Shown piece after piece: positions 9,910 to 53,261 of a DNA stretch of 64,000 nt. The notes below the pieces were generated by a model. The model did not search any database. It had not been told where the DNA came from and saw only the letters and a list, made by a program, of their open reading frames with translations. The stretch is from Thalassomonas viridans. Its GTDB lineage: Bacteria; Pseudomonadota; Gammaproteobacteria; Enterobacterales; Alteromonadaceae. Every line of letters begins with the position of its first letter. Position 1 is the first letter of the stretch. The position numbers were made by a program, and so were the translations under genes. The stretch spans positions 2,542,001-2,606,000 of the forward strand of contig NZ_CP059733.1 in NCBI RefSeq assembly GCF_000948985.2. The letters run 5' to 3'.

Positions 9910-10637
9910 AAGGGACCTGAGATATGTGTTTGTTTATTGCGCGGGTATCCTGATACGCATTTCTGTTCCTAGATGATGCTTACAGGTACCGCCTGGTAGT
10001 GCCTTACCGGAAAATTATAGTTGAATTTTCCCATCTTGTTGCCTGAGAAGCCGGGAGAAGGGGTATCCGTAGAGCGGTTTGTCTATGTAACCTGAGCCCG
10101 GCTTAAGATGAGCCTACTACTGCTTAAAATTTAGTCCTTTAGCTGTGACAGGGGGATATTGAAAAATGATCCGCTTACCGGATCATGCCGGTCAGTTAAA
10201 CGTCTGACCGTTCCTTTGGGTATGTAAAAATCTGGAGTCTTAATGAGACTTAGGATTCTTTATTTACAGAATGTAATGTATGCCATAACCTCATGGATGA
10301 AGAAGCATGGCGGTGTCTTTAAACTTTCTCTTTAATCGCCTGACGATTTTTTTTCTGTTATTGAACGTGCTTGAGCCGTCACCTTTTTTACTTCCGAAAT
10401 CAAGCCCTTACAACGACAATAAAACACTATGCTTTTCAATTGGTTAATTAAAGAAAATATTTGAAAATTAACCCTCTTTTCCTGTTGATGGATCCAGCCT
10501 TTTATACTATACCTTAATAGTCACCCACTTCATCTAAGGAGGCGCTTCAAACACTGATTATTCACTGGCCACTTACCGGCCGCCAACTTCATAAATAAGT
10601 TGGTAAATAAGATAGCAAATAAAATGCTAAACAAGGC
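9910..10637. other. Gene-poor stretch with repeat and hairpin
   Basis: No credible ORF is seen. It contains a perfect inverted repeat ATGATCCG/CGGATCAT at 10166-10186 and a solitary 51-bp repeat at 10262-10312 (listed separately). Its left part is the 5' region of the TonB-receptor gene. I looked there for cobalamin, TPP, c-di-GMP and other riboswitch signatures and recognised none, though the GC-rich segment 9980-10120 (minus strand) could fold. Confidence 0.5.
10262..10312 (+). repeat. Solitary diverged copy of the 51-bp repeat
   Basis: Exactly 51 bases that align without gaps to the tandem unit at 19655-19807: the same ATTTACAG start, the shared core ATGTAATGTATGCCAT, a shared GGATGAA, and the ATGGCG end. 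Roughly ten mismatches are present. It is the only other copy seen in the window. Confidence 0.85.
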
Positions 10638-10672
10638 GCTATCCTCAGGTGGTTGCAACACCCGAAGATAGC
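10638..10672 (+). promoter_or_regulatory. Leader hairpin of two-ORF cassette, copy 1
   Basis: GCTATC...GATAGC forms the outer stem and GGTG/CACC the inner stem of a hairpin 35 nt upstream of the small ORF. The same structure, with different stem bases (GCTG/CAGC outer stem), lies at the same place in copy 2 (51229-51262). Both are preceded by AGGCGCT. Structure kept while sequence changes suggests an RNA regulatory element. Confidence 0.55.
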
Positions 10673-10707
10673 TAACCAACACAGATATTTACTAAGAGGT
10701 ATCTATG

Positions 10708-10944
10708 ATGGCTAAAACTAATGATATGCCAGAGTTGCACTCGGTTAAAGTTTTTGTAACAAAAAACACACCACCCCGCCGCCGGCGCTGTATTGCCAAT
10801 ATCAGGAATGCCGGTATTACTCCACCCAACGGTTTTACGGGCCATTCTACCGCCAGCGGTTTTATCGGTAGTTGTTTTATGGATAGTTGTTTTATCGATA
10901 GAAACTTGCCGTTAACCTTTGCAGGAGGACAAGCTCATGTCTGA
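10708..10944 (+). CDS. Small peptide of two-ORF cassette, copy 1 (78 aa)
   Basis: Unknown family. The N-terminus MAKTNDMPELHSVKV is nearly the same as that of the ORF at 51041-51196 (MAKSNDMPEFHSVKV), while the rest differs completely: here a PPRRRR stretch and a Cys-, Ser- and Phe-containing tail. A fixed head with a free tail resembles a leader-core precursor peptide, but no modifying enzyme is nearby. I chose the ATG at 10708, not 10705, because it aligns with the only possible start in the other copy; GAGG lies upstream in both. Its stop overlaps the next gene's start in ATGTCTGA, so the pair is probably translationally coupled. Confidence 0.6.
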   Translation: MAKTNDMPELHSVKVFVTKNTPPRRRRCIANIRNAGITPPNGFTGHSTASGFIGSCFMDSCFIDRNLPLTFAGGQAHV

Positions 10945-11284
10945 ATCTACTTCAACTCCACAAAACGAAGCCGCCAGAAGGAAAGCCCAGTTGTCGGCGC
11001 TTGTCGATTTGACCGACGACTTTTCTAAGTTCCACCAGGAATGCGCCTTTCTCTGCGACGCTTTCGCCGCCGTAGCCCAGGAGCCCGAGTGCATCAGCGA
11101 GGAAACCAGCGAAGGCATACGCCATATGAGCTATTGGCTTAAATACCAGGCAAAGGAGTATTACCAGAGAATCGACGACCTCTACCAGGAAGCCTATAGT
11201 CACAATAAACAAGCCGAAGTACAGGAAAAAGCACAGGAAACAGTACAGGAAAAGGCACAGGAAAACCGGGAGGATAAACACTAG
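10937..11284 (+). CDS. ECAFLCDAFAA-family protein, cassette copy 1 (115 aa)
   Basis: Unknown function. It shares with the 91-aa product of 50773-51048 a conserved core: DDF.KF..ECAFLCDAFAA, EP.CI, TSEGI.H.SYWLK.Q...Y. Three Cys are conserved. The fold looks all-helical and cytosolic; there is no signal or membrane segment. The C-terminus here carries a repetitive Gln/Glu/Lys tail (QEKAQE repeats) absent from the other copy. Start ATG 10937 has GGAGGA upstream and overlaps the small ORF's stop. A hairpin terminator follows at 11297. The two copies lie on opposite strands about 40 kb apart. Confidence 0.7.
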   Translation: MSESTSTPQNEAARRKAQLSALVDLTDDFSKFHQECAFLCDAFAAVAQEPECISEETSEGIRHMSYWLKYQAKEYYQRIDDLYQEAYSHNKQAEVQEKAQETVQEKAQENREDKH

Positions 11285-11296
11285 TAGTAATATTTT

Positions 11297-11327
11297 AATG
11301 CCAGTCAGTGCTTAACTGACTGGCATT
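11297..11327 (+). terminator. Bidirectional terminator after cassette copy 1
   Basis: AATGCCAGTCAG and CTGACTGGCATT form a 12-bp perfect stem with a 7-base loop, flanked by A/T-rich sequence on both sides. It separates the cassette from the convergent metalloprotease gene. Confidence 0.8.
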
Positions 11328-50675: not shown

Positions 50676-50772
50676 TGATTTAAGCCGGTACTTCATACCG
50701 GGCGGGTCAATGGCATAGCCGAAGCCACCATTAATCCGCCCGCCTCCTGTCTGGTTTTAACTTTATCCGCTA

Positions 50773-51048: not shown

Positions 51049-51196
51049 GATACCGTCCTCCCTTGCTGGCAAGAGCGCTGGTTTTTGCATAAATGACAGG
51101 AAGTGTCAGCGAATGCCTAGGGGCAGGGATAAGTATATTTTCTGTTAAAGAAACTTTAACCGAGTGAAACTCTGGCATATCATTAGATTTAGCCAT
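51041..51196 (-). CDS. Small peptide of two-ORF cassette, copy 2 (51 aa)
   Basis: MAKSNDMPEFHSVKV at the start matches copy 1 at 13 of 15 positions; the remaining 36 residues (including ILIPAPRHSLTLPVIYAK) share nothing obvious with it. Ends GGRYHV, where copy 1 ends GGQAHV, so the last residues are similar again, partly because they overlap the next gene's ribosome site. GAGGTATCTAT precedes the ATG as in copy 1. Too short for most gene finders. Function unknown. Confidence 0.6.
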   Translation of the reverse strand: MAKSNDMPEFHSVKVSLTENILIPAPRHSLTLPVIYAKTSALASKGGRYHV

Positions 51197-51477
51197 GATA
51201 GATACCTCGTTTGTATCTGTTAGGGTTAGCTGTCTCTGGGTGCGGTCACACTCAGGGGCAGCGCCTGGTTTATCTGTTGCTCTTCTTGTTTACCTACCTC
51301 CTTTGCTAGGGGAATTCTCCTATTATTCATAGTACAAAATACTGAAAAAGCCAGGTTGGCGGGCATTATGTTTTTGTACAAATTGCCTGCGCTGTATAGT
51401 TTGCTGTACGGAGGGTTTAAATGATTGAAAAGTAATGATTAAACTGACTGTTGAATTTGTTTTTCAGACAAGAAAAA
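51197..51477. other. Leader and promoter region of cassette copy 2
   Basis: Holds the leader hairpin at 51229-51262 and presumably the promoter of the minus-strand cassette. No ORF is seen between the leader and the end of the tRNA array. Confidence 0.4.
51229..51262 (-). promoter_or_regulatory. Leader hairpin of two-ORF cassette, copy 2
   Basis: Minus strand: outer stem GCTG/CAGC, inner stem CTG.GTG/CACCCAG, 32 nt upstream of the small ORF, preceded by AGGCGCT. Counterpart of 10638-10672 with different stem bases. Confidence 0.5.
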
Positions 51478-51508: not shown

Positions 51509-51601
51509 TGCTCCCGCTAAGCCAGGAGGGGCTTGAACCAGTGACACACGCCGGGCTTAATAAGAGTACAGTCAGTCGCTCTGCCAACTGAGCTATTGGG
51601 A
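51509..51601 (-). pseudogene. Degenerate tRNA-Asn copy (unit 2, last)
   Basis: About 93 nt. D-arm AGCTCAGTTGGCAGAGC is intact, but the anticodon arm is expanded (ACTGTACTCTTATTAAGCCC in place of the 7-base loop and stem), the T-arm 3' side is expanded with CCTCC, the acceptor stem no longer pairs, and the CCA is lost. Confidence 0.8.
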
Positions 51602-51663: not shown

Positions 51664-51760
51664 CGGCTCCCGCTAAGCCAGGAGGGGGCTTGAACCAGTG
51701 ACGCACGCCGGGCTTAATAAGAGTACAGTCCGTCGCTCTGCCAACTGAGCTATTAAGGGA
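51664..51760 (-). pseudogene. Degenerate tRNA-Asn copy (unit 2)
   Basis: Same expanded anticodon and T arms as the other degenerate copies; 3' end reads CCG instead of CCA, and the 5' acceptor strand is altered (TCCCTTAAT). Confidence 0.8.
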
Positions 51761-51822
51761 TAAGTTTTTATTTTTCCCGGAAAAAGAAAAAGGACTGCAA
51801 AGAATTGCAGCCCTTTATAAGG

Positions 51823-51898
51823 TGGCTCCCCAAACTGGGCTTGAACCAGTGACACACGGATTAACAGTCCGTCGCTCTACCAACTGAGCTATTGGGGA
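51823..51898 (-). tRNA. tRNA-Asn (GTT)
   Basis: 76 nt with encoded CCA. Acceptor TCCCCAA/TTGGGGA, D-arm AGCTCAGTTGGTAGAGC, anticodon loop CTGTTAA with GTT, T-arm ACTGG-TTCAAGC-CCAGT. Third intact copy of unit 2. Confidence 0.97.
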
Positions 51899-51972
51899 AT
51901 AAATTTTTATGTTTGCTCTGCTCTTATAAGATTCTGAGCAAAGAACCAGAATTAAGTTCCAGTTCTAAAATG

Positions 51973-52048
51973 TGGCTCCCCAAACTGGGCTTGAACCAGT
52001 GACACACGGATTAACAGTCCGTCGCTCTACCAACTGAGCTATTGGGGA
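51973..52048 (-). tRNA. tRNA-Asn (GTT)
   Basis: 76 nt, identical to the neighbouring intact copies, with encoded CCA. Second copy of unit 2, separated by a ~75-bp spacer that is itself similar between copies. Confidence 0.97.
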
Positions 52049-52123
52049 ATAAACTTTTACGTTTGCTCTACTCTTATAAGAGTCTGAGCACAGAACCCGA
52101 ATTTAATTCCAGTTCTTAAAATG

Positions 52124-52199
52124 TGGCTCCCCAAACTGGGCTTGAACCAGTGACACACGGATTAACAGTCCGTCGCTCTACCAACTGAGCTATTGGGGA
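52124..52199 (-). tRNA. tRNA-Asn (GTT)
   Basis: 76 nt intact copy, first gene of unit 2. A strong promoter lies 39 bp upstream. Confidence 0.97.
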
Positions 52200-52237
52200 A
52201 TCGTTTTATTGGTTGGCAACCTGTCCAACGGGGGCGA

Positions 52238-52266
52238 ATATTAAAGAGCACAGGCGATCCTGTCAA
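52238..52266 (-). promoter_or_regulatory. Promoter of tRNA-Asn unit 2
   Basis: Minus strand TTGACA (52266-52261), exact 17-bp spacer, TAATAT (52243-52238), then a GC-rich discriminator TCGCCCCCG. Consensus sigma-70 with a stringent-type discriminator, as expected for stable RNA genes. Confidence 0.88.
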
Positions 52267-52589
52267 CACAAAAAACAGAAAAAAAGTAATAATTTGCTCG
52301 TTTGCTTGATTTGCGGGCAAGTGGCTGAGAATATCGCCATTTTTTGCCGTGTTTTCATTCAGGTGAAAGTTTATAGATAAAAACCATATAGTTATTGAGC
52401 CTGGTTTTATTTGCACGCAATCGGGAAGAGGAAGTACTTGTTGGTAAATTTTTAAGAAGATCTCCATGAATGCCGGGATTCAAATTTGGCTTTAAATAAA
52501 AGGCATAGTTGGTTGATCTGCTGATAGAGGTGTTGAGAGATAAGCCTTCTTTTTATTAGGAAAAGAGAAAGTAGCAAAAAACTGTAGTC
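52267..52589. other. Gap between the two tRNA units
   Basis: AT-rich, no gene seen. It separates the degenerate end of unit 1 from the promoter of unit 2. Confidence 0.4.
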
Positions 52590-52655
52590 CTAGTGGCACA
52601 CGCAGGACTTATAAAAAGTACAGTCCGTCGCTCTGCCAACTGAGCTATTGGGGGA
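52590..52655 (-). pseudogene. Truncated degenerate tRNA-Asn copy (unit 1, last)
   Basis: Only the 5' half is kept: acceptor-like start, D-arm AGCTCAGTTGGCAGAGC and ACGGACTGTAC, followed by a shortened, altered version of the expanded loop. The T-arm and 3' acceptor are missing. Confidence 0.75.
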
Positions 52656-52717
52656 TAAGTTTTTATTTTTCCTGGGGAAAGAAAAAGGGCTGCAAAAAAT
52701 TGCAGCCCTTTATAAGG

Positions 52718-52811
52718 TGGCTCCCGCTAAGCCAAGAGGGGCTTGAACCAGTGACACACGCCGGGCTTAATAAGAGTACAGTCCATCGCTCTGCCAACTG
52801 AGCTATTGGGA
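52718..52811 (-). pseudogene. Degenerate tRNA-Asn copy (unit 1)
   Basis: About 94 nt; expanded anticodon arm with TACTCTTATTAAGCCC and altered acceptor (GCGGGAG on the 3' side), CCA kept. Followed by the GGGCTGCAA hairpin. Confidence 0.8.
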
Positions 52812-52875
52812 GATAAGTTTTTATTTTTCCTGGGAAAAGAAAAAGGGCTGCAAAGAATTGCAGCCCTTTATAAGG

Positions 52876-52972
52876 TGGCTCCCGCTAAGCCAGGAGGGGG
52901 CTTGAACCAGTGGCACACGCCGGGCTTAATAAGAGTACAGTCCGTTGCTCTGCCAACTGAGCTATTGGGGGA
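52876..52972 (-). pseudogene. Degenerate tRNA-Asn copy (unit 1)
   Basis: About 97 nt; same expanded loops as the other degenerate copies, CCA kept, D-arm intact. The same insertions in all of these show that one damaged copy was multiplied. Confidence 0.8.
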
Positions 52973-53033
52973 TAAGTTATTGTTTTTCCTGAAAAAAGAA
53001 AAGGGCTACAAAAAATTGCAGCCCTTTATAAGG

Positions 53034-53109
53034 TGGCTCCCCAAACTGGGCTTGAACCAGTGACACACGGATTAACAGTCCGTCGCTCTACCAACTGAGC
53101 TATTGGGGA
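53034..53109 (-). tRNA. tRNA-Asn (GTT)
   Basis: 76 nt intact copy with encoded CCA, second gene of unit 1; a GGGCTGCAA-type hairpin follows it at about 53001-53028. Confidence 0.97.
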
Positions 53110-53185
53110 ATAAATTTTTACTTTTGGCTCTGCTCTTATAAGAGTTTGAGCACAGAACCCGAATTAAATTCCAGTTCTTAAAATG

Positions 53186-53261
53186 TGGCTCCCCAAACTG
53201 GGCTTGAACCAGTGACACACGGATTAACAGTCCGTCGCTCTACCAACTGAGCTATTGGGGA
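53186..53261 (-). tRNA. tRNA-Asn (GTT)
   Basis: 76 nt intact copy, first gene of unit 1, with the promoter 36 bp upstream. Confidence 0.97.

Follow-up and report, generated by a model that had tools for sequence, protein, structure and literature searches.

A stretch of 64,000 nucleotides from the genome of Thalassomonas viridans (the window, C1:2542001-2606000 of a host genome of 7.95 Mb in two contigs) carries two copies of a small cassette made of two overlapping open reading frames (ORFs), here ORF1 and ORF2. As proposed by the first-pass annotation of this DNA, copy A lies on the + strand and copy B on the - strand, both ORF1 products begin with a common head, MAK(T/S)NDMPE(L/F)HSVKV, and the stop of ORF1 and the start of ORF2 meet in the junction ATGTCTGA, an 8-nucleotide overlap in both copies. 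It is highly probable that each copy is a module of the SymE/SymR type, akin to a type I toxin-antitoxin system, in which the SymE reading frame has been replaced. The parts of the two copies are the following.

Copy A, 10482-10497, + strand: near-palindrome CTGTTGATGGATCCAG in the candidate mRNA promoter region, suggested by 8-mer enrichment.
Copy A, 10503-10508, + strand: -10-like TATACT in the same candidate promoter region.
Copy A, 10536-10542, + strand: AAGGAGG element in the 5' leader, with no nearby ATG after it.
Copy A, 10630-10713, - strand: SymR-like antisense RNA, ends predicted.
Copy A, 10703-10684, - strand: 5' hairpin H3 of this RNA, over the ORF1 ribosome-binding site.
Copy A, 10672-10638, - strand: hairpin H4, with a variable loop, scored as terminator-like on this strand.
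Copy A, 10721-10748, - strand: predicted antisense-RNA promoter TTAACC-16-TATCAT, a pattern match inside the first ORF1 codons.
Copy A, 10708-10944, + strand: ORF1, leader ORF of 78 amino acids, with an in-frame ATG also at 10705.
Copy A, 10937-11284, + strand: ORF2, a helical-hairpin protein of the ECAFLCDAFAA family, 115 amino acids.
Copy A, 11300-11324, + strand: hairpin after ORF2, a probable terminator read from the sequence and absent from the list of the terminator pattern scan.
Copy B, 51330-51339, - strand: -10-like TTTTGTACTA of the mRNA.
Copy B, 51191-51270, + strand: SymR-like antisense RNA, ends predicted, with H3 at 51201-51217 and H4 at 51229-51262.
Copy B, 51156-51183, + strand: predicted antisense-RNA promoter TTAACC-16-TATCAT, a pattern match inside ORF1.
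Copy B, 51196-51041, - strand: ORF1, leader ORF of 51 amino acids.
Copy B, 51048-50773, - strand: ORF2, 91 amino acids.
Copy B, 50700-50745, - strand: GC-rich inverted repeat 3' of ORF2, a probable terminator read from the sequence.

The window holds only a small part of this family. A tblastn search with ORF2 gave 79 matches in the host genome at E <= 1, and the head is present at 75 of them (at least 41 of 51 consensus bases), the remaining four being partial or weak. The exact DNA pattern of the head occurs 35 times, and a reversed control pattern gave no match. The start of contig 2 is repeated at its end, where a pair of cassettes shares 6001 identical nucleotides and one fragment pair has identical surroundings, with offsets that agree; the contig ends therefore overlap, one of the 75 head-bearing copies is an assembly duplicate, and the unique cassettes number 74, two of which lie 5.8 kb apart at one locus (L108). 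The unit first described as two copies of two ORFs is real, although it is larger than described, its conserved block starting upstream of ORF1, and is present 74 times in the genome. Among 59 genomes of relatives, the ORF2 family was found in four, all from the genus Thalassomonas, and the protein matches include T. haliotis and T. actiniarum. In a broader sample of 295 genomes from the order, two matched: the host itself and one other, whose match is weak (E 6e-4) and interrupted by three stops. At C1:2237567, a degenerate ORF2 fragment without the RNA module stands behind what seems, by eye, to be an XRE-type helix-turn-helix (HTH) gene.

What is conserved in the head is an RNA or DNA element, at the level of nucleotides and not of the peptide. 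When codons 2-18 of all 75 copies are compared with the majority codon at each position, 8 differences are synonymous and 210 non-synonymous, with about one fifth of the head sites being synonymous, while conserved residues of ORF2 show abundant synonymous change. Across all 2701 pairs of the 74 copies, non-synonymous divergence (dN) of the head is 0.136 and synonymous divergence (dS) is 0.046, with dN the larger in 2236 pairs and the smaller in 396; the 231 pairs of subfamily A likewise give a dN of 0.055, above a dS of 0.016. In an alignment of 55 copies the conserved block spans roughly positions -75 to +54 relative to the start of ORF1. An antisense promoter inside the start of ORF1 would account for this conservation. 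The candidate pattern TTAACC-16-TATCAT, found inside ORF1 of both window copies, is conserved in alignment A1, and among the most variable head positions are those that lie between the antisense -10 and the expected start, in codon 4 and at the end of codon 3. Promoter-like sites are few above shuffles in these regions (4 in the 1-kb region of copy A vs 1.6 expected, and 3 vs 1.3 in that of copy B).

The antisense strand of the cassette head encodes a structured RNA, a homologue of symR and of the RNA found in the SymE modules of the genus. The antisense strand folds better than the ORF1 strand (RNAalifold -69.4 vs -54.4, with a lower single-sequence energy in 54 of 55 copies), because A-C mismatches on the ORF1 strand become G-U pairs on the opposite one. 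A riboswitch on the + strand, also considered as a candidate, was rejected on the same comparison. Among 49 distinct sequences, 98.3% of cells are paired, and covariation involves 9 pairs with 76 cells changed on both sides, against shuffled means of 5.7 and 24.5, with 0 of 500 as high. Slid structures pair at most 47.6% of cells, a comparison in which the tested structure is favoured by having been derived from the same alignment. A covariance model built from the cassette RNA, R1, matches copy A at 10770-10619 (- strand, 153.1 bits) and copy B at 51134-51281 (+ strand, 161 bits), and finds 54-78 copies in each of the four genus genomes, numbers that are lower bounds, at most 78 candidates per genome having been scored. 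In other genera, three of 36 genomes gave borderline matches (E 0.004, 0.044, and 0.084), which were taken as chance. The Rfam symR model (RF01809) matches in antisense and over its full length (1-77) at 6 of 18 loci, that is, 6 of 16 distinct ORF2 modules (E 3e-6 to 2e-5), at one of five loci of the other two module classes (E 8.2e-7, or 1.2e-8 searched alone), and at two of 20 SymE loci.

These other classes were revealed by several strong R1 matches with no adjoining ORF2, whose loci held two other products, a ribbon-helix-helix (RHH)-like protein and SymE. In the latter case the head is carried in frame by a protein that scores as a SymE toxin (PF08845, E 2.5e-10, above the cut-off). PF08845 has 34, 45, 52, and 32 matches in the four genus genomes and occurs once in one of 74 other relatives. 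R1 lies antisense to SymE at 29 of 30 PF08845 loci (E <= 1.5e-15) and at all of another 20 (E <= 3.7e-14), 49 of 50 in total, the sole exception (L231) giving no R1 match at E <= 10. The 49 SymE starts that were read follow ATGGCT....AT.AT with few exceptions, in the same frame as the cassette head, and their typical form is ATGGCTGAATATCATCATACG.CAGAG...CTCGGCAAAAG. No described family with this motif had been known to the first-pass annotation; the head is in fact the start region of the SymE genes of the genus. In the RHH class (L213-L220 and L226; 9 loci read), ORF1 overlaps the start of the next gene, which encodes a protein of 56-61 amino acids resembling ribbon-helix-helix proteins and falling just under the Pfam cut-offs in the two tested. 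One type of module precedes, in all, three kinds of product: ORF2, the RHH-like protein, and SymE. By eye, some ORF1 tails of the RHH class (L213, L214, L219, L220, and L226) resemble the C-terminal part of ORF2, e.g. ITVYGFNRNSYWLKDE, and give the impression that a decayed ORF2 became part of ORF1 ahead of the RHH gene.

The tight coupling of ORF1 and ORF2 claimed earlier holds across the genome. The exact 8-nucleotide overlap is found in 63 of the 74 cassettes, and in these 63 not one of the 3001 ORF1 tail codons is an in-frame stop, whereas the other two frames hold 109 and 178 stops; the frame stays open even though ORF1 comes in 27 different lengths, from 45 to 82 amino acids. There is selection for an open ORF1 frame, and the simplest reading of these sequences is that ORF1 would be translated through to ORF2, its tail sequence mattering much less. 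The ORF1 bodies, described as otherwise unrelated between copies, are not wholly so: their final residues, of a GGxxHV type, are found again and again, since this part of ORF1 coincides with the ribosome-binding site of ORF2.

In Escherichia coli, SymR is described in the excerpts consulted (PMC1891008, PMC4147584) as an RNA of 77 nucleotides with its promoter within symE, which represses the synthesis of SymE, probably by blocking translation. The cassettes would work in a similar way. ORF1 would be a leader descended from the start of SymE, which holds the SymR promoter, and the antisense RNA would pair with the mRNA and block initiation at ORF1. Ribosomes would otherwise read through ORF1 to the ATGTCTGA junction and then initiate ORF2, the putative silenced effector. 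Once made, ORF2 would probably act on the cell in the manner of SymE, as a small helical protein that forms oligomers. An inducing signal, SOS control, antisense transcription, repression, and translational coupling are what we infer for this system. The cassette departs from SymE/SymR proper in the identity of its protein, and the RNA side very probably works alike. The earlier suggestion of a toxin-antitoxin-like pair names the right kind of system, although the part of candidate antitoxin falls to the antisense RNA and to neither of the two proteins. A type II toxin-antitoxin system was rejected as a candidate, given that the ORF1 tail is weakly conserved, that Pfam, NCBIfam, and PADLOC hold no ORF2 family, and that ORF2 homologues exist without the module.

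Comparison with E. coli SymE/SymR (RF01809, PF08845; excerpts of PMC1891008) shows the same position, inside the sense ORF, for the antisense promoter predicted in the cassettes, and full-length symR matches in sister copies. The differences are that the cassette ORF1 keeps the start region only, followed in an overlapping frame by an unrelated helical ORF2, and that the cassettes number dozens per genome; PF08845 is absent from ORF1 and ORF2 of both window copies at E <= 10. The SymE genes of the genus share the start region and the antisense RNA with the cassettes, but their head runs in frame into a SymE of AbrB fold, whereas that of the cassette runs into the leader and ORF2. The RHH-class module shares the head, the antisense RNA, and the ORF1 overlap, and differs in the downstream product. 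A further parallel is found in plasmid copy control of the IncFII, IncL/M, and IncI types, where an antisense RNA blocks a leader ORF needed for the overlapping Rep ORF and the hairpin loops of the RNAs vary among members. Unlike those systems, the cassettes are chromosomal, have many paralogues per cell and an RNA of the symR family, and encode no replication protein.

Several results weigh against this reading. Every symR match is below the Rfam cut-off of 61 bits, the best reaching 49.8; at E <= 1 symR finds nothing in 10 of the 16 ORF2 modules and 18 of the 20 SymE loci, and it gave no match in either window copy, even searched alone, these being matched via R1 only. Rfam at curated thresholds gives only tRNAs over the whole window. 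The head of subfamily A has a dN/dS of 0.58 over the 47 of 231 pairs having any synonymous change, a peptide-like pattern. Eleven of the 74 cassettes lack the 8-nucleotide overlap, with a gap of 0-30 nucleotides in seven, another overlap in two, and a longer gap in two, where the start was probably misplaced by the script. The ORF1 tail is not free of constraint, since dS exceeds dN in 217 of 231 pairs of one subfamily and in 47 of 55 of another. No toxin-family match was found for ORF2 in Pfam, NCBIfam, PADLOC, PHROGs, or PDB sequences, and a Foldseek search of its model against the PDB gave no match at E <= 0.001. Finally, no general LexA box was found: CTGTN8ACAG is matched at 7/8 or better upstream of 26 of 74 cassettes, in 14 of the 74 control regions (at 8/8 in one of them), and in 4 of the 74 shuffles, and the partial LexA-like site belongs mainly to one cassette subfamily.

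The loop of H4 is the part of the RNA in which the modules differ from each other. It has 64 different sequences among the 74 ORF2 cassettes, and 86 among 101 modules when 27 host SymE modules are added, a comparison that left out seven further host SymE matches and the RHH module. Taken with the sequence between H4 and the start codon, it differs in 101 of 101 host modules. In 14 pairs with an ORF2 dS below 0.15, the synonymous difference is 0.099, the loop edit distance 0.328, and the stem difference 0.003, with three identical loops; in 45 pairs with a dS of 0.15-0.3, the values are 0.193, 0.426, and 0.024, with one identical loop, and at greater ORF2 distance the loop difference plateaus near 0.5. 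In the youngest pairs the rate of change of the loops is two to three times that of synonymous sites, with the stems nearly fixed, in statistics where pairs are not independent, loops measure 6-7 nucleotides, and gene conversion of ORF2 could lower synonymous divergence. Four-fold sites taken by themselves show a like contrast with the loops, 0.28 vs 0.52 in subfamily A and 0.15 vs 0.37 in subfamily B. The faster change of the loops suggests selection for individual specificity, which loops also confer on plasmid incompatibility RNAs, and diversifying selection on the loops is a possibility. Somewhat short of an even chance, in our estimate, is the broader proposal that a single genome holds over 100 symR-family switches insulated from one another, the RNA module serving as an exchangeable silencer of at least three unrelated captured products, with the ECAFLCDAFAA family as a new class of type I effector and loops diversifying so that each RNA silences only its own mRNA.

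ORF2 is under strong purifying selection, with dN/dS values of 0.06, 0.07, and 0.11 in three subfamilies (231, 55, and 36 pairs). The model of the copy A protein consists of two long helices, 6-48 and 55-113 (mean predicted local distance difference test, pLDDT, 87.7; predicted template modelling score, pTM, 0.65), and its 304 Foldseek matches in the PDB at E <= 10 are headed by helical hairpins. The lowest E values from sequence are 0.0077 in Pfam (3 of 42 members), 0.058 in PHROGs, and 0.088 in the PDB sequence search. In a species-genome collection scanned with one short pattern, ORF2 relatives turned up in a further four genomes outside the genus, gammaproteobacterial or proteobacterial, which hold eight matches, one to four each. 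In these eight contexts R1 gave nothing beyond one chance-level match (E 1.1), and Rfam, searched in four of them, nothing at E <= 1. The proposal that ORF1 and ORF2 form an obligate pair fails on these eight homologues without an RNA match. Two of the eight genes are divergent to a small gene for a Cro/cI-type HTH protein, and together these contexts suggest that the module captured an older gene family; they fit a history in which that family acquired symR-type control in Thalassomonas before its copies became numerous.

In the excerpt of a review (PMC11894785), current descriptions of SymE make it a DNA-binding protein with a compacting effect on the nucleoid, and ORF2, when released, may similarly act on nucleic acid or on ribosomes; the chances that it is toxic are about evenly balanced. 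The strongest competing explanation keeps the same antisense module and makes ORF2 a harmless regulator or adaptor, for example a partner of DNA- or ribosome-bound proteins, so that the cassette would be a general on/off switch and not an addiction system. The lack of likeness to any toxin family, the presence of the same switch before an RHH-like protein, and the Cro/cI-type neighbour of two of the eight outside-genus genes speak for it. However, ORF2 is placed under the same type of RNA as SymE, and SymE genes elsewhere sit with such regulators too: according to the excerpts of Kawano 2007 (PMC1891008), they are often paired with Cro/cI and less often with RHH regulators, and displacement of the regulators by RNAs has been proposed. 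A harmless ORF2 is a possibility of some weight, held at distinctly less than even.

The cassettes have also spread. None of the three sister genomes has either window copy at the orthologous site; the interval of copy A measures 488 nucleotides in one (G003) vs 1316 in the host and holds a different gene in the other two. Close cassette pairs mostly share a unit from about 500 nucleotides upstream to about 600 downstream of the head. Such units, with 74 dispersed copies, could be expected of a selfish non-autonomous mobile element, moved by a transposase in trans that would use the RNA or its DNA as recognition end. This explanation is unlikely, as no shared sharp ends were seen: the edges of one subfamily have no shared terminal repeat, comparison with empty sites gave no insertion ends, the edges being too diverged to read, and no target-site duplication was seen at the cassette edges or empty sites compared. 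Moreover, a fold confined to one strand, with G-U pairs and covariation, is needless for a DNA end, and ORF2 is under strong purifying selection.

Much less probable still is that ORF1 is an active signal or a product similar to ribosomally synthesized and post-translationally modified peptides (RiPPs), with ORF2 as its handling or immunity protein, close to the first-pass suggestion of a precursor peptide with a conserved leader. A conserved start with a variable tail, the overlap with ORF2, and the excess of dS over dN in most tail pairs are what such a peptide would show. Against it, the leader of a RiPP is conserved as a peptide, which the codon departures of the head contradict; the tail has a dN/dS of 0.52 and 0.78 in two subfamilies, vs 0.06 and 0.07 for ORF2; and ORF2 has homologues without the module. 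Chance or assembly repeats, which do explain the cassette pair and the fragment pair duplicated by the contig 2 end overlap, can be discarded as a general explanation in view of 74 diverged copies with covariation, dN/dS values far from neutral, and the presence of the family in all four genus genomes searched.

The excerpts of the cited papers treat SymE/SymR as one toxin with one RNA, and the titles and abstract openings listed in the searches, subscription papers being outside the scope, mention neither multi-copy symR modules nor a replacement of SymE. In the SymE/SymR-type reading favoured here, the RNA half would be a portable control module with changed cargo and about 100 copies per genome. 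This makes it possible to test how paralogous cis-antisense RNAs escape cross-silencing, with the help of loops that vary in nature over a conserved stem, and whether non-toxic or newly toxic proteins can be brought under type I control. It would also explain a large family of unannotated small ORFs, in which apparent peptide conservation reflects the promoter of an RNA on the opposite strand, a trap for the mining of small proteins and RiPPs.

Further upstream of the conserved block, promoter-like sequences are found in the form of two 8-mers, TATACTAT in 21 and TTGTACTA in 37 of the 74 cassettes, and in none of the control regions. GGAGG is present in the 5' leader region of 67 of 74 cassettes vs 6 of 74 control regions, at a median of 128 nucleotides before ORF1, and CTGT-N12-ACAG lies upstream of 16 of 74 cassettes and of no control region.

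Besides the cassettes, the window contains an array of five tRNA-Asn(GTT) genes at 51823-53261 on the - strand. Next to copy B, inspection by eye shows two more stretches, at about 51530-51600 and 51680-51765, that resemble tRNAs but are degenerate and interrupted. Elsewhere in the host genome, a single match to the CRISPR-DR4 repeat, above the cut-off, adjoins another cassette (L004:3175-3202, host C1 at about 4265488).
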